A stretch of DNA of 64,000 nucleotides, taken from Patiria pectinifera (Eukaryota; Echinodermata; Asteroidea; Valvatida; Asterinidae). The position numbers and the translations under genes are program-made. Of the stretch, positions 1,715-59,900 are shown piece after piece. The first letter of the stretch is position 1. Each line of letters opens with the position of its first letter. Location of the stretch: NCBI GenBank assembly GCA_029964075.1, contig CM057134.1, forward strand, positions 21,492,905-21,556,904. Reading direction: 5' to 3'. The notes beneath the pieces were generated by a model, which was not told the DNA's origin, did not search any database, and saw nothing but the letters and a program-made list of their open reading frames with translations.

Positions 1715-18771
<17,057 letters not shown>

Positions 18772-26100: not shown

Positions 26101-29100
26101 TCTACATACTTATGGTAGACAAGCTGATTATTTCTTTGCAGTGAAAACAATTGCATAAAATAATGATACAGTGATAATATCTTTGGGATGTGGATGGAAG
26201 TACACAATCTCATATCTTGGAGCAACTCAACTCCTATGACTTTCTTCTATGTACTGTGTACATCATCTGCATTTTATGTAAATGCAACTGACTTATATTA
26301 GGAAATCTGTTTTGAACAGTTGTGGCTCCAAATGATAACTGTAATGATAAGTGTAATTGGCAATTTTGATGCTGACCTTGCTTTCATACTGAATGAGATG
26401 GGAGCCGTGCCGGGCGGGGCACCGAGGACCTTCTGAGAACCACTGTAAATCACGTCAATACCTGAAAATAGCCAAAGACAATGTGTACAATTTGGAATTC
26501 CATGGAGTTAAGGACAGTCTGCAAACGGCAACCAATGCTATTACTGAAGCCTTAAGGGCCAATGTTGCCTAAACTAATGCATATGCTGTCAGGTCTCCAG
26601 TTTAAAGCTATAGTCCATCATTTGCAGCCATCCGAAAAGTAACTGTCGTAATTATTGTTGAAAAACAAACTTGGATGAAAGATAGTAAGGGAACTAAACT
26701 CCCTGTGAAATTTTTCTTTCCGGGAAGCTGTCATTTTGAAGTAATCAACGAAAGAAGGCATTTCCAACGGTGATTCTTAAGAAGCACCGTAGGAAAATTT
26801 AACTTAGTAGTTCGTTTTGTTATTCAGAGCAGCGCGCACAAGTATTGGAACGACGCACACGCACGCACTGTTGTTATAATTCGTCGGATCAGTGCGCGAC
26901 GTCGCGTATAGCTGCAATTCAAAACAATTCAAAATATGATTCAGTAACTTTTGATTTGAAATTGAGATCTTAGAATGCTGCTTTTCTCGGAATGTACAGC
27001 TGAAGCTTAGCTGAAACTTCATCAGGTTAGTTGCTCAGTATCCTTCATTAGATTTTGAACTCTTTTGTTGCTTCAAACGAACAAAATGCACAAATTACAA
27101 ATGATGGACTGTAGCTTTAATGGAAGCCATGCCTGGCCTTCAGTTATCTGGTCTTATAGCCTTTAGTGCCATGGAGATATTCCTCAGGACACTTGGATGT
27201 TAATGGAATTGCATTGTTGTACGATCAATGGGCGCCATATACGAACAGCCGATGACGTTTTGTTAAGACTCATCACAAACTAACTCTAGTGTGCAGGTCA
27301 TACAAATTGCCCCATGCAGAGTCTGGTTTGTGCATATAATGTGTGTTATACCATGGTATTTAAGATTGTGAAATTAAATTGGCTGAGAACTGTTCATACA
27401 GCATACTGGATGACAATCTAATGGACTCTGTGGACAAAAAAATGGTGGAGTACATCACCTTTCATCGCTATCGACGACTTTTGATTATATTTGTCCCACT
27501 GCTACTGAACTCTCAGGCCTATTTAACTCTTTTCCAAAAGTCACCAACGAGGAGATTCTTGTGCCTGGAGTGTGTATGACCTGTACATTCAAGAACTCAT
27601 TTCTATAGGCAACACAGTGTTGCCTCTGTTAGTGGTGGAGTGTACTAACATCTTTCTCAAAATTGAAAACCGATGTTTGTATTTGAAAACCAAAACAATA
27701 ATCGAATCTTACCCCATTCATCCACAAGGAGTGGCACCCCTCCCAAGGATGCAACCGTGTCAACAAACAATAGGCAGTTGTACCTGATAGTGGGTAAACA
27801 TTCAAACCATTTCAAAAGGGAAAAGTATTACACAGATCACAGCACAACAGTAATTCACTGCCCCATATGCCTCTTAGAAAATGACACTGAAACTGGGCAA
27901 TTCCAATGCATGTACATGTAGTTATCCCACTTCTGCCACCATCAACCCCTTCCTTGTCTTTTGCTAGTGTGAATACTGCTCATAAAGGTGCACAAATTCT
28001 GCTCTGATCAAAATGATGAACTGTTACTTTTGAAATTAATTTTACAGTAGCAGCATGTAAAAAATCTCTTTTGTGAGTTTGGGAGGTTCTGAAAAGAACT
28101 GGGAAACTCAACGTTTCTGAAAGTAGCCTAAGCTTCGTCGATCATCAGGAAGGCATCTCTTGACGACAGGCACAACATTCTGTCAGAAACATTGCGCTTC
28201 CCCTGCTCTTTCCAGAACCTCGCAAACTCACAAAAGAGATTTCTTACATGGTGCTACCGTAAACTTGATCCTACTTCTATTTTCACCATGCCAACATTCG
28301 CATCATATCAAACTCTAACTTCCTGGACATTTCTGGCAGGAACTTTCTTAAATCCTTCAAAATCCTCCACTTTAGTAGGAAACCAATGGTGCATTTCTTT
28401 GTACTTTCGAGGGGTATCAAGCCCACTGTAACCAGCAGCGTAGGCAATGGAGAGGTTGGGGGGGGGGGAGGGACGCACGCCCCCGTTAAAAAATCGCTGC
28501 CCCCGTCACCAACCCAACCCCTCCCTGGAATTTTGTTAGTTGTATAAGTGACCATGGTAAACAGGTTTAACAGAAATTAGGCACCCCCTCCCCCCCTAAC
28601 ATCCATCCCCCTCCCCCACCTTGGTGAAAACATTAGCTATGCCACTTATCGAATGTAGGAGTACAAAAAGGACTGTGCCACGATTTTGAAGGACATGAAA
28701 GGGCTACTCCTGCAGTAACTCTTGCAAGTTCATTGAAATTTACCTGTGACAAAGTTCTCCAACGCCTTCGAGTGGCTGAAGTGCAGTGCCTGAGGACTCT
28801 CCTTGTGTGATGAAGAATACTGATGGATTGTACCTCCTCAGCCCCTTTAAATGTGTTAGAAACAAAAGAAGAGGTTCATATTTGGACCTCAAATAAAACT
28901 ATGGGCTCTGTGCACAAGTACTTCTTCAACGGCCAGAAAATGAGAGTTGGGGCAGACCTAGGCTAGCCTTTAGTCAAGTCGCACGCGCTTACCCGGACAC
29001 GTGACGCACCCCGGATGCTGGCACGTAAAAAGACTAGTACATGTACGAGCGGCGAAGCCGCGAGGGCCTTTACCATCTCGTGGAGAGTGCTTATGTTTTT

Positions 29101-32100
29101 CTTTACATTTGTCTACCAATTTGGTAGACAAATTTTCATGCATAATGCATGACATGTTGTGAATGCGTGCGCATCTTGTTTTTTTAGAACGCGTGTGGCG
29201 CGCGCACTCGAGGGCGCGCGCACGTGTCATCACCTCAAAAATGGCTTGTTGGTGGTGATTGGTTCACATACATCGGCATACATGCATGATTCAGTTTACT
29301 TGAAAAAATGAATAATGATTAGCTCCACGAGATGGTAAAGGCGCTCGTGGTTTCGCCACTCGACTGGTCTTTTTTCGTGCCAGAATCTGAGGTACCACGC
29401 ATCCAGGTAGACACGCGCGCCTTGACTTAAGGATAGACCTAGACTGTTCCTGGTCCATCCACTGCGTCTTTCGAATGACTCAAAGTTACTGCGGGCGAGG
29501 GTTAGTCTGGGACACCATCGCAAGATAAATTCGAAAACATATTCACTCACTTGAAGATGTTGTGGCTAAATAGCTTCAAATGGCACATTCAGAAGTTGAG
29601 TGTATGTAACCGTGAAAAATGACACACTTGGGGAAACTCGCGAAAAACTAAGACTCTATGGGGATTAACTAGCAAAACTAAACTAAACTCAGGATCTTTG
29701 AAGGGAAAAGTCGCGAGGAAATTGAATTAATAGAGACCAGAGACGAATTCTAGATTTTGAACAAAAAAAAAGGACCAAAAAGAATTTATTCACAAGAACC
29801 TTAAACCAAAAACCAAGAAATTAAGACTTAAACCCTAAAATCTAAAAACCAACACAGTGTGAATAGTGGATCTGTCAAAGAACACCCAAGCAGGAATAAA
29901 GTCAAATGACTCGAGCAGACAGAGCTCAAACAGGACAGGCTCTCCAGTTAGGAGGAACATAAAATACCGGTATAAATACTATGAAGTTGTCTCTGTTGGT
30001 CTGCTGGTTGATTAAAGTGTGGCTGGACCATGTGGCAGCTTATATAGGGGGAACATGTGGGCTAAAGTAAACAACCAGGGGGACACACTACCAAGAAAGG
30101 GGGGGGGGGGAATGTTAAGTAAAACTAAAATGATTTCTTTTTGTTCTAAAGGGGAGCTACTCCTATATACTATACACTACATACATAAAAAAATATACAA
30201 GATAAATTTGGCCCTGCCACACTCACGCCATCTTAAAATATTGCTGTCCCCAGCAATGGCGGTAAAAAAACACTTAATACAAATAAGACATGATAAAAAT
30301 AACCAAACAAATGCAAAAATACACGATACAATACACAACGAATCTATCAATCACTGCCTTTAGTCTGGAATAATTTAACTGCTGTCTTGGGATGAGTTAA
30401 AACTAATGAGGCGGTGGGATGGCATGGACCTCCTGCTGCTGCGCTACTTTACGGTGCCGCCGCATGTATCCCATTGTCTCATTATGTAGACTCGGCCAAA
30501 AGTACCACTGACGCACAACCTTCAGCACATGTCCATAGCTGCATGTTTCCATGTTGTGATGGAGATGCCGGAAGATGTCTTCCCTCATACCACGAGGAAG
30601 TACAGTTAAGTACCTGGCTTGAGTACCGTGCCCTGTCCTGAAGAAAAGAACACCACCTTTCACCTCCAAACGATCCCATTCTTGAAGAAGTCTCTGTACC
30701 ACTTTTGGCTGATGGGCCATCTTTCTACGGCTGATCCTCCTTGGACTGGCCCGCTTCATATCCACCACCTTCTTAATGGCTGGATCTTGCTGCTGGGCTG
30801 CCTGTAGACTTGGTCCACATCTGGTGCCTCCATCACCATGGCTAGATTGGCCACCGGTCGGGGCAATGGTAGGGACTTCTCTAGGGCTTCTTGGGGTGAC
30901 TTCAGGGGCGTGCGGAATCTGAGGCTCTGGCTCTTCTGTGGGGACTTGGGGTATGGGGACATCTGCAGCTGACGGTGGGGTGGAGATTTCTGGAACCGGT
31001 GAGGCTTCTGGAACTACTTTGGAGTGATGCAGGGCATACTCCAGCCTGTGAACGTAGTCTCTCTGCCGCTGCTGTTCACCAATCACTTGAGAGATCGTTG
31101 CCTTCAGTGCGTTGATTTCCTGGAACTGTTGTAGGATGACTTGCTGCATACTGGCTTGAAGTTGCAGCAGTCCCAAAATAGTTGACTGTGGGTTGACATC
31201 AGTCGGTTCATTTTCTCTGACTTGATTGTGACTGTCAGGCAGTGGATCAAATCCACACAACTGAAGCGGAGTCAGGGCATCTGCCATCATGAACTCCTTG
31301 GATCCACTAAAACAGCACTGTGTTGGTTTAACTAGCTGATTAAAGACGGCCAATGACCAAACAAAACAAAAAAACCTTGAAAAAAAAATGCCTAGTCCCT
31401 ATTAAAACAATTCCTGGCTAAGTTGTAAAAAACATATTCCCTACCCGGATCTTCCACCAAAAATAGTAAAAAAATGTAACCGTGAAAAATGACACACTTG
31501 GGGAAACTCGCGAAAAACTAAGACTCTATGGGGATTAACTAGCAAAACTAAACTAAACTCAGGATCTTTGAAGGGAAAAGTCGCGAGGAAATTGAATTAA
31601 TAGAGACCAGAGACGAATTCTAGATTTTGAACAAAAAAAAAGGACCAAAAAGAATTTATTCACAAGAACCTTAAACCAAAAACCAAGAAATTAAGACTTA
31701 AACCCTAAAATCTAAAAACCAACACAGTGTGAATAGTGGATCTGTCAAAGAACACCCAAGCAGGAATAAAGTCAAATGACTCGAGCAGACAGAGCTCAAA
31801 CAGGACAGGCTCTCCAGTTAGGAGGAACATAAAATACCGGTATAAATACTATGAAGTTGTCTCTGTTGGTCTGCTGGTTGATTAAAGTGTGGCTGGACCA
31901 TGTGGCAGCTTATATAGGGGGAACATGTGGGCTAAAGTAAACAACCAGGGGGACACACTACCAAGAAAGGGGGGGGGGGAATGTTAAGTAAAACTAAAAT
32001 GATTTCTTTTTGTTCTAAAGGGGAGCTACTCCTATATACTATACACTACATACATAAAAAAATATACAAGATAAATTTGGCCCTGCCACATGTACTTCGC

Positions 32101-35100
32101 GTGCGAACCTGTGTGTCCCCGTCCATGGGGATCTCAAAAGTGGTAAAAAAGCGCCCTCTTTTGTCGGCGCATGGAGCCCATAAGCCAATAATTTGATACC
32201 TTATATGCACAAATTTGACAACTTTCACCTGATAAAGTCAACAGACAAATGCACAGATATGGGACGTGGTCACCAAATTCACATTCTGCAATTTTTCACG
32301 CAATAAAAATAAGATGAAAATTTTGGTTGGTTGCACAAAAAGAAGAAAATATAGCTCATGGGGAGAGCCTTTTTAATATAAAACCCTGTGTATTTCTAAT
32401 CTGGTTGCCATCTTCAAAAGGGCCTTTGTCCAACCCCCCCCCCCCCCCCACTTCGTATTTGCTAGATTCTAAGTTAAGCTCGTGGGTTAACAATAACACT
32501 CTTCAAGCATTTGCTTGAAAACTAAAAGTAGGGCTGGATGATTTGTTCCTAACAGATTTTTCTTGAAAGAAACTTTTTAGAAACTTACATTTTCTATTTC
32601 AAGAAGTGAGAACACTTGTCCCATCGGCTTTTTGATGATTTTAACGTTTGCTCCTGAAAATGATTGGAATTATTCAAAACCATGGATTAAACAGCAGCAC
32701 TTGCGACACATATCTGATACTCAAACAGGACACAGAAAGGAAAGCGTTCCATACCTGGACATCACTTGACACTCTGTGCACAAACCCTATGAGACTGGTC
32801 TGAAAAATTCCAAGTGTTTTCTCAGTAAATGTTTCAATATTTTTCTTCTAAATTTGACTTTTAGAACATGCTATCGCTTTCTGATAGCTGACAGGATCCT
32901 GGAGGGAAAAATTAGTAATGTCCATGTATGGAATTCTTCCCCACAAAAATTTTGATGATATGGAGAAAATAATCTGTAAAATATAGATATCTGGGGGTTT
33001 TTTTCAATAGAGTTTTATTTGAACTTGTGAATTTCACTTGTTGTCATTTCAAATCAACACACTAACTCTCAACTCTCAAGCATTTTTGCAAGATCTTTCC
33101 CAGTCAAGCCCCAATTAAAATAACGGTTTCAGGGCCTTGCACTAAACTTTTCATTTATGAAAAGTCATGCCCAACTGGTACTTGTAGTTGGATTTTAGAG
33201 AAATTTGGTTGTTACAGGCTAATGCAAAAGAAAAGTACAAGACTCTACTAATTAGGACTTGCACTTAATTAAATATGCCATATTTGGTATTCTTCTGGAG
33301 ATTTTTTTTTAAAGAAACGTTCCAAGTTATTTTGAGCAAAGGCCTGTGTCAAGTAGAGTGTACAACAATTTACCATTTCTGTTGGCCAAGTCTGCGAGCC
33401 GTTTTCCCCAGAGTCCTTTCTCAGCAACAAGAATGGTGTCTCCTGGCTCAACGATGTTCATAGTTGCTGCCTCCATGCCTGCATGGCCGGTTCCACTCAC
33501 AGCCAATGTCAGCTCGTTACTGGTCTGAAAGGCATACTGGATACCAGCCTTCACATCATCCATTACCTGTGCAATGAAGATTTGCCTTTAATTATGCTGT
33601 AAACTTAACTGCTTCTGCTAAATGCATATCATTATGGTAACGGCGATCGTGAAGTGTAGGGCCCCTGTTAAGTTTCGATAAATTAAGAGTCAACGATGAT
33701 TCTTATTACTCAAAAATGACTTTTTCAACGTAACTCAGACATCTCTTAGTATAATGACACGTTTTTGTAATTTTTGAACAGTTTTACTGGGTCAAAAGTA
33801 TGGAAAAAGTGTTGCAACCTGACACCACTTCTGCAATTGTGTACAAAGTCTATGGAGAGAACATTTTCTAAGTATTTCCTAACAAAATTGGATTTTTTTT
33901 CAGTCCCAGATTCATGTCTTATCATCATTTTTGCAATGAATGACCTGTCATCATCATTTTACCCCCAATCTTAATTATGTCGCCAACTAGTAATAATGGT
34001 AGGTCAAATACATGTAAACAGTGTTAGCTGGAGTTAACCTCAGCCCCAAATTTTATCATTGGGTTGCCTAAATCATGACAACCCAATGATAAAATTTAGG
34101 CAGTGGATATTTTGCCGGAGACGGCAAACCTTTAGTAAACGTTAGTTTGCCGGATATGCACTGAACATGCGCAGTTGCTGTTTTTTTGTACTTAAACATT
34201 TTCCGGTGACAAAGTTTAGTCTGGCTCCATGCCAATATTATCGTTGTATTTTTGTATTAACAAGATGGGAATCAGACCATTTTATAATTTCGGACTTTAT
34301 TTCCCTTTAAAAAAAATCCTCCAGAGCCACCAATCTGAAAAAGAAAAAGTAATACTCTGCAATAAAATGTTTGAGACATATTAAAATAATAAAAGAAGAA
34401 TATTCTTATTTATTTGGGGATGGGAAAAAAAACCTTAAAATTATGGCGGGGGTCAGGATTCGAACTCGGGACATCCCACTCACTAGAGCTATTGCTTAAC
34501 CACTGCACCGACTGTGCTACACAACTTTGGTGGGAATTTAATACCGTAATTTTCGGAATATAAGCCGCGCGGCGTATAAGCCGCAGTAGGCAAAAATCTG
34601 CAAATTAAGATTTGCAGTCGGCGTATAAGCCGCACCGGCGTATAAGCCGCACCGACCGTAGTGGTTTCAATTTTGTAGGGCCTCCAAATTCTAGTCAAAA
34701 TGCCCTGAACCAGTTCCATTTACACTACGAAAGCTATAAAAAGGGCCACAAAAGTTATATCAAATCATTCACAGTTGATACTCTTACAATAATACAAACA
34801 AATATGGAAATGATGATGAGAAATAAACACCGGGAATTACTACCGGCTGCCCCGTCCGGTCTCAGCATGGCCCAGCAGCTAGCGCCGGTGTCGTGCCAAA
34901 AACCGTCCGGTGCCAAATAGTGTCCGCTAATTAGCATAATGCGATCTGATTGGTCATGCGTCTCTGACGTCACATTGTTTACGGACGCTTGCCAAATAGT
35001 GTCCGCGCTTAGCGTGCATCCTATTGCGTGCCTTGTCGAGCCGTCAATACATCGTATAGAAAAGATCTCTTTTCACCTGAATTTGCTTTTTACAATCTGT

Positions 35101-37371
35101 TTTAACGTTTTTCTTGTCATCTGTGATAACTATTTGACTTGGTTTCCCTAATAGTTTAAACATTATATTTGTGCAAAATGTGTTTTTTTCGCGTCAGTTC
35201 ACCTGTTTGGCCTGACGCCGTGTGAAGTGTGTGTAGTAGTACTGTGCTGTGTGTAGCATTATAACCAACGTTATATTTTATGGTTTCTCCCACCTAATAC
35301 TGTCCGATTTTTCCTGCCAAAAATTGTCCGATTTTTCCTGCCAAACTGCCCGATTCCTCCTGCCAAATATTGTCCGATTCCCCCCTACCAAATACTGTCC
35401 AATTTTTCCTGCCAAATACTGTCCGATTTTTCCTGCTAAACAGTGTCCGATTCCCCCTGCCAAATAGTGTCCGATTTTCCTGCGAAAAAAATGTCCGATT
35501 TTTTTTGCTAAATACTTTCCGATTCCCCCCGCCAAATATTGTCTGATTCCCCCGCCACTGAATATTGTCCGATTTTTCCTGCCAACAAATACTGTCCGAT
35601 TCCCCGCCCTGCCAAATATTGTCCGATTCCCCCTTGCAAAATACTGTCCGATTTTTCCAGCTTAATACTGTCCAGCAGGACGTACGTTCGTGCGCCCTTG
35701 TTCTCGCTCGATCGACGGCGCCCGGACACTATTTGGCACCGGACACTATTTGGCATGTATTACATGCCAAATGGTGTCTGGCGCCTACTGCGCATGCTCA
35801 GCGGACACTATTTGGCACCGGACGGTTTTTGGCACGACACCGGCAAATGATAACATTTTCCCCCAGCACTTGAGATATGTAACCCACCGTGTGTCGTCTG
35901 ACTGGAGGCTACATGTACAAATGCTGCTTTGTGGCAACAGACGCTGATTTGTTTTGTCCTAAGAATAAACAGGTCCATTTTTACAACAAAACTTATCAAA
36001 TTGTTGTGATTACTAACGTCAAAATTCAAGTTGCGATCGTAACTCTCTTCGAAAATAGTCAACACGATGCTGAAAATTTTATGGACGAATCCATTCATTT
36101 CGTAAGGGGTGATTTTTAGCCCCTGCTTTGAGTTTTACATCGTTTCTTGAATACATTTCAAGAAAAAAAAATTATATTGTGACATTGAACAACTGATTAT
36201 TGAATAGAGAAATATTTGGAACTCCATAAAAAGTATTAGTTTCTGTTTTTAAACAGCAGAAATATTGGTAATTATTGTTCCCAAGAAAGTACACCCCTTT
36301 ATTACAACAAATGATGTGGTCCATGGGAAAGGCATGCAGCATGCATGCAACACTGCACTAGGATCATGTACTGCCCCTGTCACATGAAAATCCGACTCCT
36401 ATGAAAATCGGACCCCTTTTCCCTTTTATTGGTTAATCCCTCTCACGTGACCGGTCACTTTCCTAATTATCATACTTACGCATGCGCAGTATTACCAATG
36501 AGTCCGATTTTCATAGAAACGTAAATTCACGCTACACCTGTCGTCGATGTCAAAGAGACAGCTTTCGCTAGCCGTACTTTTTACCTTTTCGTTGGACGTG
36601 CTTTCGGTTTGTTTATGACTTTCTTTATTGATGATTTATTTCAGCAACAAATCTTTCCTTATACCAGTACATTAAATATACATTTGAATATCATTTTTAT
36701 TCTTCACGGCTCGGCGTATAAGCCGCCCTGTGTATAAGCCGCAGTAAACATTTTCATGGGCAAATTCAACGTATAAGCCGCGGCTTATATTCCGAAAATT
36801 ACGGTACATGTTATAATTCAGCCCTATCATAAAGAGTACAGTGCCCTCTGTTGATATGGATTGCCGCCGGCAAACCTTTAGTAAACGTTAGTTTGCCGGC
36901 GTTACCTCCGGCAAAATATACACTACCTAAAATTTAGGGCTGCCTTAGGTAGCTCCAGCTAGAAATTGTAATTTAAAAGTGGATTTTGTTCCCTTATATT
37001 TAGGAACCGGGCTCGTAGATACACGATCGCCCTATTTTGGAATGCCATGTAATTGGAAGTAGAACTAGTAGTAGTCCTAGTAGTAGGCCATTTGGGTTCT
37101 TTGGCCCCAAGGATTTGCCTTTCATTATACACTGTACATGATTGTGATGTGACCAGTCATGACAGTACAGTAAGCGCGGCCTACATGGCCTACACACACA
37201 ATAAATTACCTTCACAAATTCCGGGTGCAAATGACCCAACATAGGCAGTGCCCCGGCAGCAAGAATCCTCGGTGGAACATTGGATGGTCCAGGTCCCATC
37301 AGCAACTTCTGAGGGACATTTATAGGCATCAAAAGCTCCTTTGAAGGAGAAATTTGAAGCTTTCGTTGCAT
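23167..37371 (-). CDS. AGXT: Alanine-glyoxylate / serine-pyruvate aminotransferase, complete, peroxisomal
   Basis: PLP-dependent class V aminotransferase converting glyoxylate and alanine to glycine and pyruvate. Exons in order: 37210-37371, 33374-33566, 32589-32653, 28744-28844, 27713-27783, 26377-26461, 25155-25250, 24599-24847, 23600-23645, 23167-23286. They total 1188 bases, phases are continuous and give 395 residues, close to human AGXT (392). Motifs: [18 protein letters not shown] near the N-terminus, [31 protein letters not shown] (cofactor aspartate), YSGSQK with the Schiff-base lysine at residue 208, YHHT, and WRIGLMG near the C-terminus. The protein ends ASKL, a canonical type 1 peroxisomal signal. 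An in-frame TGA just upstream of ATG 37371 rules out a mitochondrial leader within this exon. Introns hold a young LTR element (intron 3) and nested inverted-repeat elements (intron 1). Confidence 0.96.
25617..25688 (+). mobile_element. tRNA-like sequence (SINE head or degenerate tRNA)
   Basis: Folds as a 72-nt cloverleaf: acceptor GGCTGGA/TCCAGCC, D arm GCTCAGTTGGTAGAGC, anticodon stem CTGGA/TCCAG with loop ACGGCAA (GGC, alanine-like), T arm GCAGG/CCCGC. Position 33 is C instead of the invariant T, the T stem has a mismatch and the T loop is CTCAAAC. These defects favour a tRNA-derived SINE head or pseudo-tRNA over a working gene. It lies in AGXT intron 6. Confidence 0.65.
26602..27120. mobile_element. 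MITE with TTAAAGC termini, copy A
   Basis: Ends TTAAAGCTATAGTCCATCA and TGATGGACTGTAGCTTTAA are inverted, with TTAA at both tips. Closely related to 52448-52956 and more distantly to 39153-39574. Located in AGXT intron 5, with no coding content. Confidence 0.82.
28953..29460. mobile_element. Inverted-repeat element with roughly 100-bp arms
   Basis: The inner arms GCCTTTACCATCTCGTGGAG and CTCCACGAGATGGTAAAGGC are exact inverses. Outward, GAGCGGCGAAGCC pairs with GGTTTCGCCACTC, and the outer flanks (TAGTCAAG...CGCGC against GCGCGC...CTTGACT) match imperfectly. Foldback-type element in AGXT intron 3, about 140 bp from the LTR element. Outer limits approximate. Confidence 0.65.
29605..30221 (-). 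repeat. 3' LTR
   Basis: The downstream LTR in element sense. A weak purine-rich tract (AAGATGGCGTGAG on the minus strand) abuts it at 30222-30234 and may act as the polypurine tract. Confidence 0.92.
30403..31353 (-). CDS. LTR element protein: coiled-coil/proline-rich N-terminus fused to a pol linker and degenerate integrase zinc domain
   Basis: 316 residues. Residues about 55-115 are a glutamine/leucine-rich predicted coiled coil ([20 protein letters not shown]), which could mediate gag-like assembly. Residues about 115-175 are proline-rich. The C-terminal part ([20 protein letters not shown], then [24 protein letters not shown]) resembles the segment between RNase H and integrase in gypsy pol, up to the HHCC zinc-binding domain. 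Where the final cysteine pair is expected the protein reads MRRHRK, so zinc binding is probably lost. The frame is intact despite the missing enzymes. This fits a non-autonomous derivative moved by a relative's proteins. Confidence 0.8.
   Translation of the reverse strand: MAVFNQLVKPTQCCFSGSKEFMMADALTPLQLCGFDPLPDSHNQVRENEPTDVNPQSTILGLLQLQASMQQVILQQFQEINALKATISQVIGEQQRQRDYVHRLEYALHHSKVVPEASPVPEISTPPSAADVPIPQVPTEEPEPQIPHAPEVTPRSPREVPTIAPTGGQSSHGDGGTRCGPSLQAAQQQDPAIKKVVDMKRASPRRISRRKMAHQPKVVQRLLQEWDRLEVKGGVLFFRTGHGTQARYLTVLPRGMREDIFRHLHHNMETCSYGHVLKVVRQWYFWPSLHNETMGYMRRHRKVAQQQEVHAIPPPH
31475..32090 (-). repeat. 5' LTR
   Basis: The upstream LTR in element sense, identical to the other LTR except for one G. 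Fifteen bases inward, 31444-31459 on the plus strand reads CCCGGATCTTCCACCA. This resembles a tRNA 3' end with CCA, so its minus-strand complement is a candidate primer-binding site. I could not name the tRNA. Confidence 0.9.
34443..34515 (-). mobile_element. tRNA-like SINE head, reverse orientation
   Basis: Reverse complement of a tRNA-like promoter: GTCAGGATTCGAACTCGGGA (B box) followed by TTGCTTAACCACTGCACCGA (A box). It sits inside the outer element of the nested set, just left of the middle element. Confidence 0.65.
34884..35844. mobile_element. Innermost inverted-repeat element with perfect 45-bp termini
   Basis: The left terminus 34884-34928 (GCCGGTGTCGTGCCAAAAAC onward) is the exact inverse of 35800-35844. 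The terminal word TGCCAAATAGTGTCCG recurs inside, where it seeds a 24-bp satellite at 35297-35680. No transposase frame; 961 bp. Confidence 0.88.
35297..35680. repeat. Degenerate satellite of about 24 bp (TGTCCGATTTTTCCTGCCAAATAC type)
   Basis: About 16 head-to-tail units alternating CCGATTTTTCCTGCCAAA and CCGATTCCCCCTGCCAAA variants. The core GCCAAATA.TGTCCG matches the terminal inverted repeat of the surrounding element, so the array probably arose by amplification of that terminus. Confidence 0.85.
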
Positions 37372-37452
37372 CGTGATTCAACAAGTTGTCGGATAGTGTT
37401 TACATAGGCGATTTGGCGTACATATAGTGCGCCCTCAATAGTGCGCTCTTCT

Positions 37453-41978: not shown

Positions 41979-44900
41979 CTGAAATGCAACAAATAAGTTA
42001 CAAAATAACAGCTACAACGAAATCCCATCAACTTAAAATTAATATTAAACCAAAACCCAAAATGTACAACACCAATTCCTTTTAGGTGACTGCAAAACAA
42101 AGACAACGTAGATAAAATAAGCAAATCAAAATGTAGCTTAAGTTTATCAGGGAACGTTCCAGGTAAGGTTGGGCAAGTTAAAAGATTTTATGTGCTCTTC
42201 AGCATGCTGCTGCTCAGTTTCAGCGTGGTGATGAGCTTTTCAGCATTGCACACCACTGTGTTCATTCAGCATGTTCAGTGTGATGGAAGTGTCTAATTTC
42301 CCAGATAGTGTGATGAGAAACCACAACAACCTCAGAAGATATGGTACTTGATAACATTTATTCTTTATCAAGTTGGAATGATATACATGTACTTACTTCC
42401 GTTCCCGTCGCGGCATCGTTGGACAGCAGGCTGGGCTTCAGCTTGGCCTGTTTCCATGGCGACTGGATCGTCCAGGTGACTGAATATCCAATCAGCTGCT
42501 CGCTCTATGTTGTTATCCTAAAGCATTACCAAAGTACATTTTTTTTTGTTTCATTTTGGTTCACAGAGTCTGGCAGTTTATGTTTAAAGTTGGACAGTCC
42601 TAGGAAATTGTTTTAAAATACTTGGTGCTTTGTCAAGTATCAGTTTCAGAAATTGAAGGAATATTCCTTACCATTATCTTTCCTAATTTTAGCTCCATGT
42701 GGTGAAAAAACAAGTGCGATAAAATTAGATGGTATAGATTGATCTGTTGTACACAGTAAGATGCAGTTACTGAGATAGAACCACAACTACACACATCGCA
42801 CACTATTTCTAAGTTAAGATACGTACGTATTTCAACAACTATGATGGTCAGAGGAGGGTGTTCATGTTTATACGTGTAAATCGATATGGTGTGCCACATC
42901 GGTGGATCCAGGACAGGAACCAAACTCGGGTTCAACCGATTAGAAAACTTACAAAAGAAAAGTTATGAGAAGAACAAGCTAGAGTACAAACAAAAAAAAG
43001 AAAAGAGAAGAAAGAAAAATCCGCCATAAACAGCCCAAAACAAAACGTGCTGGGTGTGTACATGTATGAGTCCCTTGAGTAGGCTTTTGACATCACCCTG
43101 AATAGTTTCTTATTGAGATTGCTGGATAAGTCTTGAGTATTTATCAAGAGTTTTCACAATAAATTGGCAATCTGCCATTAAATTGGCGAGTTTCCAACAA
43201 AAAAAGTAAGCAAGGTGCCGTGTGCAGTGTAAAAGTTACGGCTAAAAGTTGGCAAAGTTCCAAGCGACTAGTGATTACATGCATCTTCAGCTTACCGTTG
43301 CTTTGAGTGCTCTGATGGCTTGATCTCTGCCGAATCCCATGCTCAAGATCATCGCTATGCTGTCTTCGTTCACGACAAACTCGGGCGCCTTCTTAGGCCC
43401 TGCTAGCTGCAATGGCTCTGCGAAATCTGAAGGATCACAAAGTGAAATTCGCTTCAATCAATTTCTGGACAAAATCTCTGTTAATCAAACAGTCTCAACT
43501 CCATAACTGACAAGCCCGGTTCATACTCGGCGCGAAAGCGAAAGCAAATTTGTGACGACATGGCAAGTATTCGCGCTGCGAATTCATGAAAGTTGAACAT
43601 ATTTCAACTCGGGTGAATTTCGCAGCGAACGTTTCACGACGTCGAATTCGCTTCGCATTCGCGTGAAGTATGAACCGGGCTTCATTTAGAGAATCGCAAT
43701 GCCATACTGCAATAACAATCTGAGATGTGCATTACTACTTCCGTTGTGGCAAACTGTCTGGTGCTCTGCAAAGAAGTTAAGAAATGCATGTGAAGCGATA
43801 CTGCAATGCAACAGTCAGATGCCACTGTTACGATTCATGAATAATATGATTTGCATGTCAAACGAGTCCCTCCTAAACACAAGACACTGTCACTTAGGTT
43901 GCCTGTATGAAGCTGGAACGTTGGGAAGAATACAGACAGTCTTATTTGTATACAAAAATCCTGCAGGATTCCAAAGAAGTTACTACGTAAATAGGATAGT
44001 CAATGCGAAGGTGCACCAATTAAAAACTAATCCAGTGGCTTGGCAATCCTTTATCGATCATTCATAAATACCTAAGACAGTTTACCCGTTTGTACTGGTC
44101 AAAAGCCAGTCACATGGGGAGTGGTTTGAAACGATTGATAAAACACTTTTCCATTGTCACATGAAATTTGGACTCCTAAGTACTCTGGTCCCTTTTAACC
44201 TTTTTTGTTGAATGTTCACAATCATCACTGAAATGAGTCCGTACTTCAACAGTCCTAAATTCTCACTACACCAGCACCGCCACGTTCTGCACCATATTGC
44301 GCAGAGCGCGCCATATAAGGAGATGTTTACAACTGCTTGCGAGAGGCACATACCATAACATAGCTAGAGGGTGTTTATAAAAACATGAAGTCAATTTGTT
44401 GAACGAAATTGTTGGAAATTTATAGTTTTTGACTCGTTTTGACTTTTTGACTGAGAGGTATTTATGAATGGGAACAAATATGTGCTTGGCCAATATTAAA
44501 CAAGTACATTTTAAACTGGCTTGGGGCCTGGTCGCCGATAATCAGCGTCCAGACCCCCTAGCCGGTTTTAAACGTACTTGTTTAAAACTGGCCAAGCACA
44601 TATTTATCCCTTATTAACCTCTTTGACCAGTAACCACGACCTTAAAATGCCTTGGTTAATGCACACTGTTGTTTGACCTTTGACGTACCTGCATCAGACA
44701 TATGTTGGAAGACCCAGTTCATGGCAGCATCCACCCCAGAGTTCTTGGTGTGGTAGACAGCCTTCCTGCATCCCTCCCTGGCAAAACCCATGTCCATCAA
44801 TTGCTGCACCGTCTCCTCGCTAATCTCTGGCTCTGCATTCAAAAACACACAGACAGTAGAAAATATTCAGTGTTAAGAAAGTAGCAGTATTTTGATCCCC

Positions 44901-47900
44901 ACATTGTTTTATGCCATGCTGCAATAAGCCTACAGGTACAAGCTTTTAGCAGCTCCACAACGGACTCTACCTGTATGCACTCCCTCTTCAACTAAAGAGA
45001 AAGTTGGAGGTCAGTCCCCTATTGCATTAACACTCAAGCCCTGACGCGATGGGTTCATGAATACTCAGAATAAAATTATTTGTGCGTACTTCGTGCCATG
45101 TCTGCAACACACACACACAAGTGTGTATTTGCCTGCAATCGGGGACCCCCTATTGTTCCTCTTTTGTTTTTACTAACTTTTAGGGAGACCTCCCATGTAT
45201 GTTTGTACAAGATCGCCAAATTGGGGACCCTATTGTCCTCTATTGTTCAATGTCCCCTATTGAATGCAGAAACAAACTCACACACACCCAGTCGTGCATT
45301 TCTATACGCCCGAGGACAATGCTTTGTGTTTCCCTTAGTTCCTGTAATATAACACTCTCCCATAGAGTAAGCACATAACCGTACGATCGAGGACCGTATT
45401 CAACAAAAGACGCAACGCCCGAGGACTGAAAGGATCTTTTGTTCTCCCTTTGTGTGTCTGTCCTCTATCGTAAAGCCATACACGTACATGTGCGCACACG
45501 TGGAGTGTCTACCTTTAATACTAGAACACCCATCTACTCTTAATGCATAGAGTCTGTAACACGTCTTGCTATGCGTCAAAGAAAATGGTAGCTAATTACC
45601 CTTACTTACTAATGCTTCTGGGCCAATATTTTGAGTGATTGAGGGCTCGATAACAACTCAACTGGGGGGAGGTATAAACAATAGAAATGTCACATGTATT
45701 GAAGTACATTTTCAGGTTTAGTAACTTTATTTCAAGTTGATTATAATAAATATTGTTATATCATGCGCTTGGATACTGTTATTTCATTGGTCTAGAGCGG
45801 CCATGTGTCCATTTAAAAAAGTGCATATCACACTGTGTTCATTATGCCTCAAAAGGGCGCTATTCAGCAGAGTTGTAATGACTCGAGTCAATGACTCGAC
45901 TCGAGTCCGACTCGAGTCACATTTTTCTGACTCGACTCAGGGACTCGATCTAACCGAGTCCCGACAGGTAAATTCGGAGCTCGAGGAGAGTCACTGCGAG
46001 CAAATGACTCGACTCGACTCGAGGAAGGCTAATACGACTCGAGTCCCAAAAATAAAAGCACAACTTACTTGCGAAAAATATTTGCAATGACTTACGCCGC
46101 GCCGTGTTGGCGTTGCCAGTTTTTGTTCACGTCACGTTATGTTCGCGAATTATGTACGTTCATATACAGCGGCCGTCTTTTTTCATTCCTCCATTATGAT
46201 ACAACAAACATACACCGTGTCGCGGACTCCCACCTTGTTGTTCTATAGCATGTAATGCTAACGGATCGGAACCAGACTTAAAACGCATTTCTCAATCCGT
46301 GGTTTCATCATTGGTTTCGGGCAATTTCTTATAAAGCTCTTGGTGGAACGCTGGCTAAATTTATGTCCCGATTTCACACACACAAAAAATGGATACGGAT
46401 GGGACCACCTTTAAATAATCAGAAACAGTTTTGTATAATGTAATTAGGTTTTGACGTTGTCAGCGATCAGCGAACAACAAAATCTAAACCCGAAGCCAAA
46501 ACAGTTATAAGACCGAAGTTTCACATCTTCTTATCTGTGACGTGAGTTAGCAATGGAAACTGTTGGTTGGGTACCTTACAGCATACTTTTTTTCTTTGGA
46601 TTTTCGTAATAGACTGGTGCCTTGTATTCTTTCTCTCTTGTGTTTGTTGCTTTTTATTGTAATTTATTATATAGTGTTCAAATATTTGTGACTCGAATTG
46701 ACTCGAGCTAAATACTTGACTCGACTCGACTCGACTCGACCACACACTGTGACTCGACTCGACTCGACTCGACCTTGTTGACCTAATGACTCGACTCGAC
46801 TCGAGTCACTTCTTTAAAATGACTCGACTCGACTCGAGTCACAAAAATCAGTGACTCGTTACAACTCTGCTATTCAGTGCCCTTACAAAAATATGGTCTG
46901 TTGAAGTATATGTACTCTGAATTTCTAAACGCAAGCCCACCATGTACCTCTAGCTGTATTGCCTCACCTGGTTCTGGGGGGCTGTCTCCTTCAGGTAACT
47001 CCACCTCACCTGGTTGGAGTCCGCTGCCCCTGTAAGCAGTCAAGTCTAACTCATCTTTACCCTACCTTTAGGCCAGACACTACCTCTAGCTGTATTGCCT
47101 CACCTGGTTCTGGGGGGCTGTCTCCCTCAGGTAACTCCACCTCCCCTGGTTGGAGTCCGCTGCCCCTGTAAGCAGTCAAGTCTAACTCATCTTTACCCTA
47201 CCTTTAGGCCAGACACTACCTCTAGCTGTATTGCCTCACCTGGTTCTGGGGGGCTGTCTCCCTCAGGTAACTCTACCTCCCCTGGTTGGAGTCCGCTGCC
47301 CTGTAAACAGTCAAGTCTAACTCATCTTTACCCTACCTTTAGGCCAGACACTACCTCTAGCTGTATTGCCTCACCTGGTTCTGGGGGGCTGTCTCCCTCA
47401 GGTAACTCTACCTCCCCTGGTTGGAGTCCGCTGCCCCTGTAAGCAGTCAAGTCTAACTCATCTTTACCCTACCTTTAGGCCAGACACTACCTCTAGCTGT
47501 ATTGCCTCACCTGGTTCTGGGGGGCTGTCTCCTTCAGGTAACTCCACCTCACCTGGTTGGAGTCCGCTGCCCCTGTAAGCAGTCAAGTCTAACTCATCTT
47601 TACCCTACCTTTAGGCCAGACACTACCTCTAGCTGTATTGCCTCACCTGGTTCTGGGGGGCTGTCTCCTTCAGGTAACTCCACCTCACCTGGTTGGAGTC
47701 CACTGCCCCTATAAGCAGTCAAGTCTAACTCATCTGGCATGTCAACTGCAACATCTAGGAGACACAGAAAAACACAACCAATATACCTCTTGCTTCACAA
47801 ATAATTTTAAACTAAGGATTGTACTTGGCAGTTGGCAGACTTCCTCTCATCTTCTTGCATCAGTACATGTGTAGTGGCAAATCCATATAAAAAAGGTACA

Positions 47901-50900
47901 CAATAGAAATGGAATTTTTCATCCCTCTTTTGTACAGTCTGTCTGCCCAATTATCAATCTGGCTATGCCTGTGATGTCTATGTTTGTTAGTTGTGAACTT
48001 GGCGTGATTGTGATTGGTGGCCATATGTGATGCGAACAAGCTAAATGAGTCGTTTGTCGGGAACTTTCATTTGGAGATTAAGGCCAAAATAGGGCCACTT
48101 CATCACATCACTTCATCACATCTCTTGGTGTTCCGACTTCCATAATTTTTGAACTAAAGATGGTACCAGCATGCGGTTTTCACAGCAGTAATGCTGAGAT
48201 TGTGCTTTTTTCAAAACTGTAAAAAAAAAAATTGACCAGGGTTGACAAGCGACTCATTTAGCTTGATCGCATCACATATGTCTGTCAATACTGCAACATG
48301 AGATAAGACATTAACAAGATTACATCACAACTCCCAATGGTCGAATGGAAACATCTGTCACTACTATCATGGAGGCCCCTTCAATGGCAGAAGCATTGTG
48401 CTAGCTATTGCTCAGGTAACAGGCATGCAACTGGGAATTTAGAAGGAAAAAATGAAGCTATTCCAAACCACACAACACTTTGTACAGCGTTTTTCAATTT
48501 GTAATGGCATTCATGAGAATTAAAAAAAAACGAGGAAATCAGCGGATCTGAGGAAAAGTTGCATGCCTGAGATAATCAGTCACAGGGCAGTTGGTTTGCA
48601 CAAAAAGGCTCACAATGGTTTCCTCATCGAAGGGGGCGCTGTGAGTGTACAAAGATCACGTTCCTGGATTCGTCAAGTTGGTCATTAGAAGACTCAGCAC
48701 CCCACAAGTAAAATGCTTACAAGATTTCAACAATGAGAAACAGAGACCAACTGTAGGAAGTAACTTTCTACAAGTGGTAGCCATAACTACCCATGTGTAC
48801 TGATGTGTGAATGAGACGTCATTGGGGTTTTATTTTACCATATACAAGGTTGTGAATTTTTCAGCATAAAGGTCTGCTCTTTTTAAAACTCCCACATTTC
48901 TTGTTCTTAAATCCCGCAACAAGAATATCTAGGTCTATGTGGATACATGTACAGAAAATATGTTGGATATGGAGTCCAACTGTACCTAAAGTATATGAAC
49001 TTGAAAAAAAGTAAAACTGCTGCAAACTGCTTACTGACTGGATGGACCTGAAATATATAAATCTTAAAATTAATGTGGCCTGACGTTGCGAACTTAGCAA
49101 GTTCTTCTTCAGAGGCTAAAACCTCTGAAGAAGAACTTGCTAAGTTCGCAACGTCAGGCCACATTAATTTTAAGATTTAAAGTATATGAAAGTATATGGA
49201 ACTTAACCCTAACAGAACTCAACCCATCAAACCCCAACAGCATGTTTTGTTGGAATCTGTCAGGATGGGTACAGTACCCCTAAACTGACAGTCTTTTACA
49301 TTGGGTTGGCACACCTCCAGAATCAAAGTCAGAAATACGTGTGTGCAGTTTCCCATATGGTGTTGGAATTTGCCAGGATGGGTATGGTTCCTAGTAAATC
49401 ATGCTAGGGAGTTACATGTAGGGTTAATAATGAATCTTGATCAAGTAAATGAGACCTTATCCTTTTATTCTGTCTGGCCCATTAACCCCAAATGCCTTGA
49501 TAATGTTTCATCATGTAGTCCACCCATAAACTTCCAATAAGTTCTCAATGCACACCAAAAGTCTTTTGAAATGTGTCAAGGGGAAAACAAATAAACACAC
49601 ACGCAAACTCTTCTATTGTGTAATTCTTACCAAGTTTCTTTGGCACCCAGTTTTCAGAGAGGGTGAACTTCTTCAGTTGTATTACCAGGAAATCAGGAAA
49701 GGTTGCCAGCTTTGCACTCCTGTAAGAGAACACAAGCACATCCATCAAATTTCTTTCATTTTTGGACAAAATAAAAAATTTGTCCAGACTTTCATACCGA
49801 CACTAGGTTATGTAATTCACAGATCATATTTTCAAACAGTTAGGGGTTTGTTATATGTACGCTTGCATATAATTACTAAAGACACCTTTGTACGTGCCTA
49901 CTCTAGTGATTGGACAAATGTTAGAGAGGTTTCATATTCGAACGGATACGTGTACGCATACATGTAACTATCCGTATTAAACTATTCCGTTGTATCGCAT
50001 TGCGTAAGCAAAAGGTTGTATCGCATCGCGTAAGCAGACGTATATGTTGAGTTGTCGGAAACAAGTAGATATCCAAAATGGCAGCCTCCAATTAAAGCCT
50101 CGTATTTCTGACTAATTCTGCTTTCAAACACAGACAAATGGCACATACATTCAGCAATTCATCGTCTTTCAATCAAATCATACATGATTAAATAACTTAT
50201 CAGAAAAGAGGGTGACACTTGAAAATTTTAAAATTTGTTTCACCCTGATGCGTTGTGCGATAGATCCGTGCCACGTACCCAAGTAGGGGATAGTGACTTG
50301 CGTGTGACGTCACAGGACCACAAAACTGATCATCAATCCGGCCTGTTGTCCCTATCCGTTCGCTTGTGAAACCTTTAAATTACCTAGTAGCCACGGACTT
50401 GGCCTGCAGGGCGGAGCTGAAGAAATCCTCCACAGTCTCTGGGGCCATGAATGCCTCTAGGCAAGCTGAGACAGGGATGCGAGGCCGGACCAGCTCCTTG
50501 GGATCGACCGGCTGCTTCTTGGCTTCCAGTTCCTTCTTCTTAGCCTCATAGGCTGCAACTTCCTCTGTAGAGATAGACAAGTGCACAGCCAATCAGCCAA
50601 ATTCTTTCAAACAAGCGCGAGTGCACAATAAGCTCTGGCCCGGTTTTGGAATGTCTCGCTTCATATGCAAAACAGATGCGAATACGCATCGATCGAGACA
50701 AAGGGGCGTGTTCTGAAAACTTTCGCCGAGAGTGCATTTACCTGTTTACTAACGACGACATTGCATTTGGTCAATTGCTAGTTATATTTTATGGGAAACT
50801 TAGGGTGCTCGTTTTTGGTCAATTTTCTGGGGACAGACCCTACCGACTGACCGACCGACAGCGAAGTGACATGTTGAAGATGTGGATTGACTCAATATGG

Positions 50901-56900: not shown

Positions 56901-59900
56901 TTCCAACCATGTATATAACTCCATTTCACCTTTTTGTGACATAATACCCTTTTTGTGGGGCCGGTCACATATGGCAAGCAGAATACACAACTTAGTTTCA
57001 CATGGATGAAAATACAAAGGCACAAACTCACTGGATCTTCGCCTGCTACTTGAATACAGAGTCTAACAGAGCCAAAAGTTATACCACAGGTTACTAACAC
57101 ATGATGGAAAATCATGGCATTGAAATGCCCTCACTTTTTGGTACTGTCACTTTTTTCACCACTAAGTTTAGAGGGTTTCAGCATGCGTTGAGCCAATGTA
57201 TGTAGTGTGTACCTATTGCCCAGGTTCCTGATGCCAGTGTAGCCTGATCCATACAGCGGCGTCAGCTTGCTGCCAGCCTCCTGAATCACATCCCACTCAG
57301 CCACCTTGGTGTTCAGGTCAATCTCCAGCTCTGTCATGGTCTTATCTGTCTGAAATTCAATTCAACACATTTCTTTCTCAAGATAATACATGATTAACCT
57401 GCATCTTGTGATGTGGTCCATGCATGTCAAAACCGGGCACTTCTGGGCAAGAAGTCATTGAGTTATTGCAATAATAGTAAAATACACACGTTGCTCTTTC
57501 AAACCTTTGTTTGTCCCTTTGTTTTTTTAAATTGGATATACCAAAGCAAAGCTTTTTATTTTGAATTCAGACTGTCCAAAAAGTCACTTTTACAGTGCAT
57601 TTTAAACGTTACTTAGCACCACAAAAAAAAACCTCAAAATTGCTGAAAATCAACCCATGTCATTTGCTTTTTTGTTTTGCAATTTTTCATTTGAAGCAAC
57701 AGAATTCCCCAAATGTTTAACTGCATTACAACCACACGTATTAACCGTTGACCTTTTAGCTCAGTAGATACAATACATTTTGAGAAAACAGAGAAAACAT
57801 CAACACTTTTTTTATCTCAGAACTGGATTCCATTGCTACATGTACTGTATATTAAACAGTGTGCCAATAGGCACCACCTTCAATGTTGGTTTTCTTCAAA
57901 ATGATACCACTTCAAGCGGAGTAATTTCACAGGGTATTTGCCACAAGTCCTATCTTCACTTCGAGAAGGTTATTGTATTTAAATTGGTAGGCATTTCTCT
58001 GGGCTATTGCAAATGATCCTACGTAGCTTTAACCAGTTTCGTCGTGATAACACGCACTGGCTGTTTTTATACATAGGTACGGCTGGCGGGTTAAGACGTC
58101 AAGATTGCATCGACTTGCCTGCGGGTGACATTTAAACACGCTAATCCCTCGTGCCTTTTGTACACACACACAAAAGCCGTGAAGTCTGTGGAGGCGGACC
58201 ATGTGTTGATCTTGAATTGGCTATTGTGTACGGCCTATTGTACAATTTACGCTCCAGTGCACGCCCCGAAGTAGTGAAACTAATGAGGTTTTGGCAAGAA
58301 ATACCGTACAAATACTGTTGAAATGACTCTTGCAAATCAGTGTTTGTGGCGTTTGGCTGTATATCTGAAGTTGGCTGGAAAGTTCTGCCTTTTGCGAAAA
58401 TCGAAATTTTCAGCAAAAACAATGCCGGCGGGAAGTGATTAACTGTCCTACCTTTTCCATGATCATCATGTTGATTCCAAAATGAGCCAGGTGCTGAGCT
58501 AGCTTGGGATCCTCCACCATGTCATCCTCATCGTAGGAAAACACATCTACATAGGCAATCCAGGGCTAACATGAATAAGTCTTGTGGAAATAAATGCAGG
58601 AATCATAATCAAAACATTTAGAAATTGATTAAACTTGTTGCTTTTTCAAAACCGTTTTAAACATAACTATTTTTCAAACTCCCAATACTGAGTTTTCATC
58701 TGCCCGACTAAAATTGTGCATCTTGTCGATTTGACCACGCCAAACAAAACGTTACAGATATAAACCGAATCCGAACCAAAGCTAATGTGAAGCCCAACAC
58801 TCAATCTGGCCAAAACAAATTAAGCAAAAACTGACCCGAAACTGAACCAAAAACTCCAACATCTGGATTGGGCAACTGTGTACACATTTTGTGCCTGAAC
58901 TTGAAAATCGTTGTCCGTCAGTATTGGAATCATACTGTACGGTACGGTGAAGGCTCATAACGTTACCTACCGGTGGGCCTACACCTTATAGACTGTGCGT
59001 GATGGACCACAAAGCCCATGCACATTCGCATGGTTGGGTTGACGTTGGTTGTAACAGGTACAGAACTCGGCAATAATATTGCACCGCGTGAATTTCCAAA
59101 CTGTTTCTTCTGTTTTTCTCCAGTTTCCAAAGTCGGTTTCAGGTTGGGTCTGTTTCATTTTCAGGTCGATTTGCACAACATTATCCGAGACACAAATTCC
59201 ATCATATGAACAGTTTGGTAGTGGTACTCGCTGCTGTAACAGATTCGAACCAGCCAGACGACCCTGGCAAGCTCGGTGGTTGAGTGGTAAGACGTCTGCA
59301 CTACTCAGCAGGAGGTCATGGGTTCGAGTCCCAACCAAGTAAGCTTGTGATTTTTTATTTTTTTTGCACGCCCTTGAACAACACTGAGTATACAGTGTTT
59401 ATTAAAGTTGAAAGGGTGCTGATAATTACCCGAGCCGGAGGCGAGGGTAATTATCAGCATACAGACTCTAAGCGGTATTAAACAGAGTGATAAATACCGA
59501 CCGAGCACATATTTATTCCAATTCATAAATACCTTATCCGTAAAAAATATCAAATAATTCGTTCAAAAAATCCCGATTTTGTTCAACAAGTTCACTTCAT
59601 GCTTTTTGAAACATCCCCTCTAGCAATATAATGGAGTGTTCAGCTGGCGAGTAAGATGTAAACAACCCTTTTATGGAGATTGACGCGCGCGTAACATGTT
59701 CTGCGCGATGTCACGCAGAACGCACCTTGGGCGTTGCGTTTTGAATTTACAACTATAAAATTCTGACTCGCTTGTAGTGTTGCGCATGCCTACGTGAGGA
59801 TTGTGAACGTTCAACCAATGAAACGGTAAGAGGCACTGGATTTTTAGGAGTCCACATTTTATTTTGACAATGGAAAAGTGTTTAAGACCAGCTAGCCATG

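Follow-up and report, generated by a model that had tools for sequence, protein, structure and literature searches.

The 64,000-nucleotide stretch of DNA analyzed here (the window) carries a USP5 gene on its minus strand, in which 15 homologous blocks were located. The protein joined from these blocks, an approximate model that excludes the N-terminal part, the C-terminal part, and at least one middle part, matched human USP5 (3ihp_A) over three stretches (E value of 2.1e-205), and UBA, UCH, and zf-UBP domains were found in it with Pfam. The 13 mapped introns are between 260 and 2814 nt long, and the longest one contains a tandem array that begins within the preceding exon (referred to below as the parent exon). 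A spliced test protein running through the parent exon matched human USP5 3ihp_A with an E value of 2.3e-80. The Pfam match to UCH, the catalytic domain, extends to residue 117 of this test protein, which lies inside the repeated segment, and the first 22 residues of that segment are 63.6% identical to human USP5. Searches with the USP5 peptide confirmed no relative in viral_contigs or genome_contigs, a result that is uninformative for an animal gene. Two other features were seen in USP5 introns. A 122-bp palindrome with a 96.7% self-match lies at 49058 to 49179, in the intron preceding the parent exon, and a weak tRNA match (Rfam, 32.9 bits) without ARAGORN support lies at 59270 to 59342 and is perhaps a tRNA-derived SINE.

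The tandem array was confirmed as real and is well observed. TRF reported a period of 136 bp with 5.8 copies and 98% matches (score of 1498), in agreement with the six-copy, 136-bp minisatellite described in the initial annotation. The array had been placed at 46961 to 47754 with the parent exon as its first copy; both the location and the role of the parent exon hold, but the array end extends further, to 46945. On the transcript (minus) strand, the units start at 47733, 47597, 47461, 47325, 47190, and 47054, with spacings of 136, 136, 136, 135, and 136. Each unit is composed of the last 87 nt of the USP5 exon and a 49-nt spacer that is the start of its intron. The spacer is invariant across the five complete copies, whereas unit 6 retains only its first 23 nt. 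The exon-like part of unit 4 is 86 nt long. AGGT motifs occur five times per unit, compared with 0.47 expected from the minus strand of the window. When 794 nt of the array were searched against the host genome (613.5 Mb), the only match among the best candidates scored was the array itself. No older copies of the unit were found elsewhere in the window by blastn-short, which gave matches of 10 nt at most and which strongly diverged copies would escape. For the 26-nt end of the spacer, blastn-short outside the array likewise gave only matches of 9 nt or less as a possible source. The array is adjoined by a 1002-bp element at 45860 to 46877 that is flanked by the 8-bp repeat CTGAATAG. The matching inverted ends of this element begin CAGAGTTGTAA, and the element is rich in GACTCGAGTC; judged by its target-site length, it is presumably hAT-like.

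Table 1. Positions in the window of the USP5 array, its units, and the neighboring exons
Feature	Positions	Strand	Basis
Preceding USP5 exon	49631..49719	-	Splice sites, 3ihp_A match
Parent USP5 exon, 108 nt, phase 1/1; last 87 nt are the exon part of unit 1	47647..47754	-	Splice sites, translation, 3ihp_A match
42-nt tail of the parent exon behind the internal donor CAG/GTGAGG	47647..47688	-	Donor scan, translation
Whole tandem array, 136-bp unit, 5.8 copies	46945..47735	-	TRF, unit starts, genome search
Unit 1 spacer, 49 nt, start of the real intron	47598..47646	-	Unit comparison
Exon-like part of unit 2 (87 nt, frame kept)	47511..47597	-	Unit comparison, translation
Unit 2, example of a 56-nt frameshifting segment with the best-scoring in-unit acceptor (2.1)	47511..47566	-	Acceptor scan
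Unit 2 microexon-like segment, 21 nt, in frame, acceptor 0.9	47511..47531	-	Acceptor scan
Exon-like part of unit 3 (87 nt, frame kept), with GGGAGG in place of the internal donor GTGAGG	47375..47461	-	
Unit 4 exon-like part, 86 nt, frameshift by 1-nt deletion; A to V; internal donor changed	47240..47325	-	
Exon-like part of unit 5 (87 nt, frame kept), with an altered internal donor	47104..47190	-	
Exon-like part of unit 6 (87 nt, frame kept), sequence as in unit 2	46968..47054	-	
Unit 6 microexon-like segment, 21 nt, counterpart of that in unit 2	46968..46988	-	
Unit 6 shortened spacer, first 23 nt; array end	46945..46967	-	
Next USP5 exon (UBA1)	44689..44832	-	Splice sites, 3ihp_A match, Pfam

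The parent exon is in phase 1 at both its start and its end. The initial annotation had proposed that cassettes with this phase would be frame-neutral and had singled out the copy at 47240 to 47325 as an exception. Translation agreed on both counts, with four of the five downstream units being 87 nt long, open, and exactly frame-keeping, while the excepted copy (unit 4) shifts the frame. A unit spliced in from its first base would add 29 residues, of which 8 are acidic, 1 is basic, and 5 are proline. An acidic, proline-containing linker had been predicted, but the added peptide would not be linker alone; because the Pfam UCH match ends inside the segment, the peptide would comprise the end of the catalytic domain as well. 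The predicted product that retains the first spacer contains a stop codon. Translation across a join of the internal donor of unit 1 with the corresponding AG in another unit gave the normal protein.

The splice signals of these proposed cassettes were scored with matrices built from 14 donors (that of the parent exon excluded) and 14 acceptors of USP5, which were chosen by homology, frame, and GT/AG and which amount to 14 sites from one gene. The cassette acceptor, gggtaaag/ATG, scored -4.8, below all 14 mapped USP5 acceptors (leave-one-out scores of -0.9 to 13.6; median of 5.8), and ranked at the 41.9th percentile among 3666 AGs of the minus strand. Pyrimidines occupy 5 of its 17 positions from -20 to -4, compared with 9 to 14 in the mapped acceptors. 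The acceptor of the parent exon has 14 pyrimidines of 17 and a score of 10.4 as a member of its own training set. No yUnAy branch motif was present in the 49-nt spacer; a match was also absent from the last 50 nt of 3 of 14 true introns, including the one before the parent exon. The cassette intron would be 49 nt long, compared with 260 nt for the shortest mapped intron. Introns of 49 nt and acceptors lacking a pyrimidine tract had been named as weak points in the initial annotation. The values obtained here do not support the description of the units as ready-made cassette exons, since length and phase keep the frame in four of five downstream units but the acceptor, the branch region, and the intron length lie outside the mapped range of the gene, with the branch part of this comparison being weaker because three true introns also lack the motif. 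The donor 9-mer CAG/GTGAGG occurs nine times in the array, at the six unit ends and internally in units 1, 2, and 6. It scored 4.4, just below the weakest of the 14 other donors (4.7, leave-one-out), indicating that this common donor is weak, and equally so in the parent exon and the copies.

Acceptors elsewhere in the units were examined by scanning for AGs scoring above -5. The acceptor at offset 31 scored 2.1 in units 2, 3, 5, and 6; a branch motif lies at -17, and the predicted 56-nt exon leads to a stop codon. Six nucleotides upstream, the acceptor TTACAG/GGG (offset 25) scored 0.4 to 0.6 in units 2 to 6, with a predicted exon of 61 to 62 nt that also leads to a stop codon; TTATAG in the parent exon scored -1.9, compared with 0.4 for TTACAG of the copies. 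The acceptor at offset 66 scored 0.9 in units 2 and 6, where it would give an in-frame exon of 21 nt, and its counterpart AG in units 3 to 5 scored -0.2 to -0.6, with a predicted 22-nt exon leading to a stop codon. Among the in-unit acceptors within the true range, the frame is preserved only by the one giving the 21-nt exon (units 2 and 6). Weak yet gene-like acceptors do occur in the array, and the acceptors of the 87-nt cassettes are not among them. Use of the internal donor of the parent exon, 42 nt before the exon end, gives a predicted product that is in frame and 14 residues shorter.

Seven columns vary across the six units, one of them being the deletion. Five columns vary among the five intact units, all at third codon positions and all synonymous, and these units thus encode one 29-residue peptide. 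The amino acid change (A to V) and the deletion are both confined to unit 4. The naive probability that five of five differences are synonymous by chance was 0.0006 to 0.0025 (transition weights of 1 to 4). Two of the five differences, however, distinguish unit 1, the functional exon, from the other intact units and possibly reflect its own ordinary selection, which weakens the case for strong coding selection on the copies. When these two were omitted, three of three differences were synonymous (P of 0.012 to 0.027), or three of four when the change in unit 4 was counted (P of 0.04 to 0.08). When selection was simulated on unit 1 alone, with the most changed unit dropped to mirror the exclusion of unit 4, all variation was synonymous in 1.1% of 8000 samples under a star model and in 0 to 2% under a turnover model (for each setting, between 50 and 2228 autocorrelated samples). 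For a spacer without variation, P was about 0.04; simulations with selection on all units gave an invariant spacer in 0 to 27% of cases over four turnover rates, the highest value coming from only 15 samples, and explained its invariance poorly as well. All of these tests were post hoc, being picked after the data were seen, and the synonymous-only signal is modest, with a P of about 0.01 to 0.08 once selection on the real exon itself is allowed for. The synonymous-only pattern would be expected if the copies were translated. The explanation that we prefer is a young array receiving variants from functional alleles, which would account for both this pattern and the invariant spacer without any use of the poor acceptors; the invariance of the spacer fits a young array.

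The array is probably a minisatellite that grew from the donor end of the USP5 exon, of the kind termed "mirage" in amphioxus, and that lies silent in the intron. As in mirages, the tandem unit spans an exon/intron boundary, and AG/GT splice signals lie within the units. We consider it most likely an array of this type. The exon would be defined by its own strong acceptor and the donor of the first unit and would be spliced straight to the exon at 44832, with the other five copies being removed with the intron. Unequal exchange would vary the repeat number, and the single peptide of the intact copies may reflect exchange or conversion that brought in variants from functional exon alleles already filtered by selection. 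This reading is favored because the acceptor, the branch region, and the intron length of the cassettes fall outside the mapped range of USP5. Arrays with a period of 60 to 300 and at least 2.5 copies were present in 4 of 20 10-kb stretches (200 kb at fixed places, C1 to C4), and at this background rate an array at some exon boundary in the genome would be unsurprising. Several points count against a silent array: the synonymous-only variation would not be predicted from selection on unit 1 alone, several in-unit acceptors lie in the true range, the common donor scores just below the weakest other donor, and the splice matrix is built on 14 sites from one gene.

One alternative, set out in the initial annotation, is that transcripts include some, or even all, of the four intact units as in-frame 87-nt cassettes separated by spliced introns of 49 nt. 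The spacing of the catalytic domain and UBA1 would then depend on both splicing and repeat number. The copied donors, the exact frame, and the common peptide agree with this proposal, and the invariant spacer might suit an intron that is used. The human G-rich introns of NDOR1 (intron 12, 49 nt) and ESRP2 (43 nt) are described as spliced despite very poor signals in the available part of PMC8363638, so that such a length does not by itself preclude splicing, and 18 of the 49 spacer nucleotides are G. Human USP5 isoforms 1 and 2 also appear to diverge at the same junction (PMC5126665, available part). The splice signals described above nevertheless make the use of the cassettes improbable, as do the frameshifted unit in the middle of the array and the treatment of a comparable predicted exon within the repeats of amphioxus PGBD5, which its authors omitted by judgment without RNA evidence (PMC3902484, available part). 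The in-frame cassette idea rests on the frame and on a modest synonymous signal that has an alternative explanation. For the same proposal in its selective form, in which the copies are under coding selection through splicing across ultrashort G-rich 49-nt introns, with copy number and splicing setting the catalytic domain-UBA1 distance at the junction where vertebrate isoforms appear to differ, we consider the chances to be slim.

The in-unit acceptors raise other possibilities. Together with the unit donor, those at offsets 31 and 25 could turn the units into poison exons of 56 nt or 61 to 62 nt, and array length would then tune nonproductive splicing. Both acceptors score above the weakest mapped acceptor (-0.9), every such product contains a stop codon, and the parental TTATAG is poorer than the TTACAG of the copies, but the scores are low within the true range, the pyrimidine counts are 8 to 10 of 17, compared with 9 to 14, and we regard this role as quite unlikely. 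Small in-frame changes have a somewhat more open, although still low, probability; these would arise from the two donors 42 nt apart (14 residues fewer) or from a 21-nt microexon of units 2 and 6 (7 residues more), with the rest of the array a bystander. The two donors of the parent exon share an identical 9-mer and the shortened product is open, as is that of the microexon, but an equal 9-mer need not mean equal use and the microexon acceptor has only 7 pyrimidines of 17. Such splicing and a silent array are mutually compatible. Finally, tandem arrays are sometimes misassembled, with one case in the available part of PMC3087553, and the copy number could be wrong or the array itself spurious. 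This is highly improbable for an array of less than 0.8 kb within a 24.2-Mb contig in which units 1 and 4 carry private variants.

The favored reading of a silent mirage-type array can be compared with published cases, each taken from the available parts of the papers. In amphioxus, the globin gene BflGb6 has units of 150 to 160 bp, with 6 copies in one haplotype and 3 in another, and in BflGb9 a 157-bp unit duplicates the 3' boundary of exon 2. Regular splicing is suggested by RT-PCR for these globin mirages, although the copied splice signals could serve as cryptic sites (PMC3087553), and mirages in general are inferred by their authors to leave splicing undisturbed (PMC3087553, PMC3902484). 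Amphioxus PGBD5 has 108-bp repeats, three or six depending on the assembly, the first of which adjoins the 5' splice site (PMC3902484), and Adh3 is a further amphioxus case of minisatellite instability (cited through PMC3087553 and PMC3902484). Like these four, the USP5 array is a few-copy repeat across an exon/intron boundary with copied AG/GT, and its 136-bp unit is within the published range of 10 to 160 bp (PMC3087553, PMC3902484). In contrast to the cases consulted, which are all from amphioxus, the host of the USP5 array is perhaps not Branchiostoma. The exon part of the USP5 array is also in frame and encodes one peptide in the intact copies, for which we met no equivalent statement in the available text on published mirages. 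Internal tandem repeats at human exon-intron boundaries (PMC2812944) are similar in being boundary minisatellites that alter gene structure; they differ in their 30-bp average units, their occurrence in recent primate paralogs, and their RNA-supported altered introns, whereas the USP5 array was examined in DNA and has one genomic match. The Rogers model of intron gain by AG/GT tandem duplication (cited in PMC3087553) resembles the present case in its AGGT-rich units and in the cross-unit join that restores the protein, but the internal AG of the USP5 units scores only -4.8 as an acceptor, and any new intron there would be hypothetical.

If a conserved gene, possibly in an animal other than Branchiostoma, indeed carries a mirage-type array, this would suggest that boundary copying is a general outcome of minisatellite growth. 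With one peptide in all intact copies, this array can discriminate between two histories, translation of the copies and resupply from functional alleles. Were the cassettes in use, protein length could be tuned heritably through the repeat number.

We take the human USP5 isoform 1/2 event to be the use of an alternative 5' splice site. The balance between the two isoforms is shifted by PTB knockdown (PMC5126665). Judged from the isoform 2 primer and the 3ihp_A alignment, this vertebrate splicing apparently falls at the equivalent position, in the stretch that links the catalytic domain to UBA1, but the available part of PMC5126665 describes it as the presence or absence of exon 15 and leaves a repeat array unmentioned. 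Among the matches listed from the open-licence literature, no title concerned a tandem array in USP5.

Several further features were observed elsewhere in the window. On the minus strand, exon pieces resembling a Mind bomb/ankyrin gene lie at 4294 to 7746 (Pfam), and exon pieces resembling a class V aminotransferase gene lie at 24496 to 37377 (Pfam), with the piece at 37 kb lacking a Pfam match and being assigned by eye. A good tRNA-Ala is located at 25617 to 25689. At 29604 to 32090, two 618-bp direct repeats that are 99.8% alike flank a minus-strand open reading frame (30403 to 31398) with a weak Integrase_H2C2 match under the Pfam cutoff, and the whole looks like a young LTR element. Two adjoining stretches of about 1.7 kb at 11069 to 14510 are 91% alike, and parts of them recur near 983 to 1567. 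A pure AT dinucleotide run at 17071 to 17299 has 114.5 copies with 100% matches, and a 24-bp-based array at 35296 to 35673 has about 15 copies with 73% matches and is open in two minus-strand frames and partly on the plus strand.
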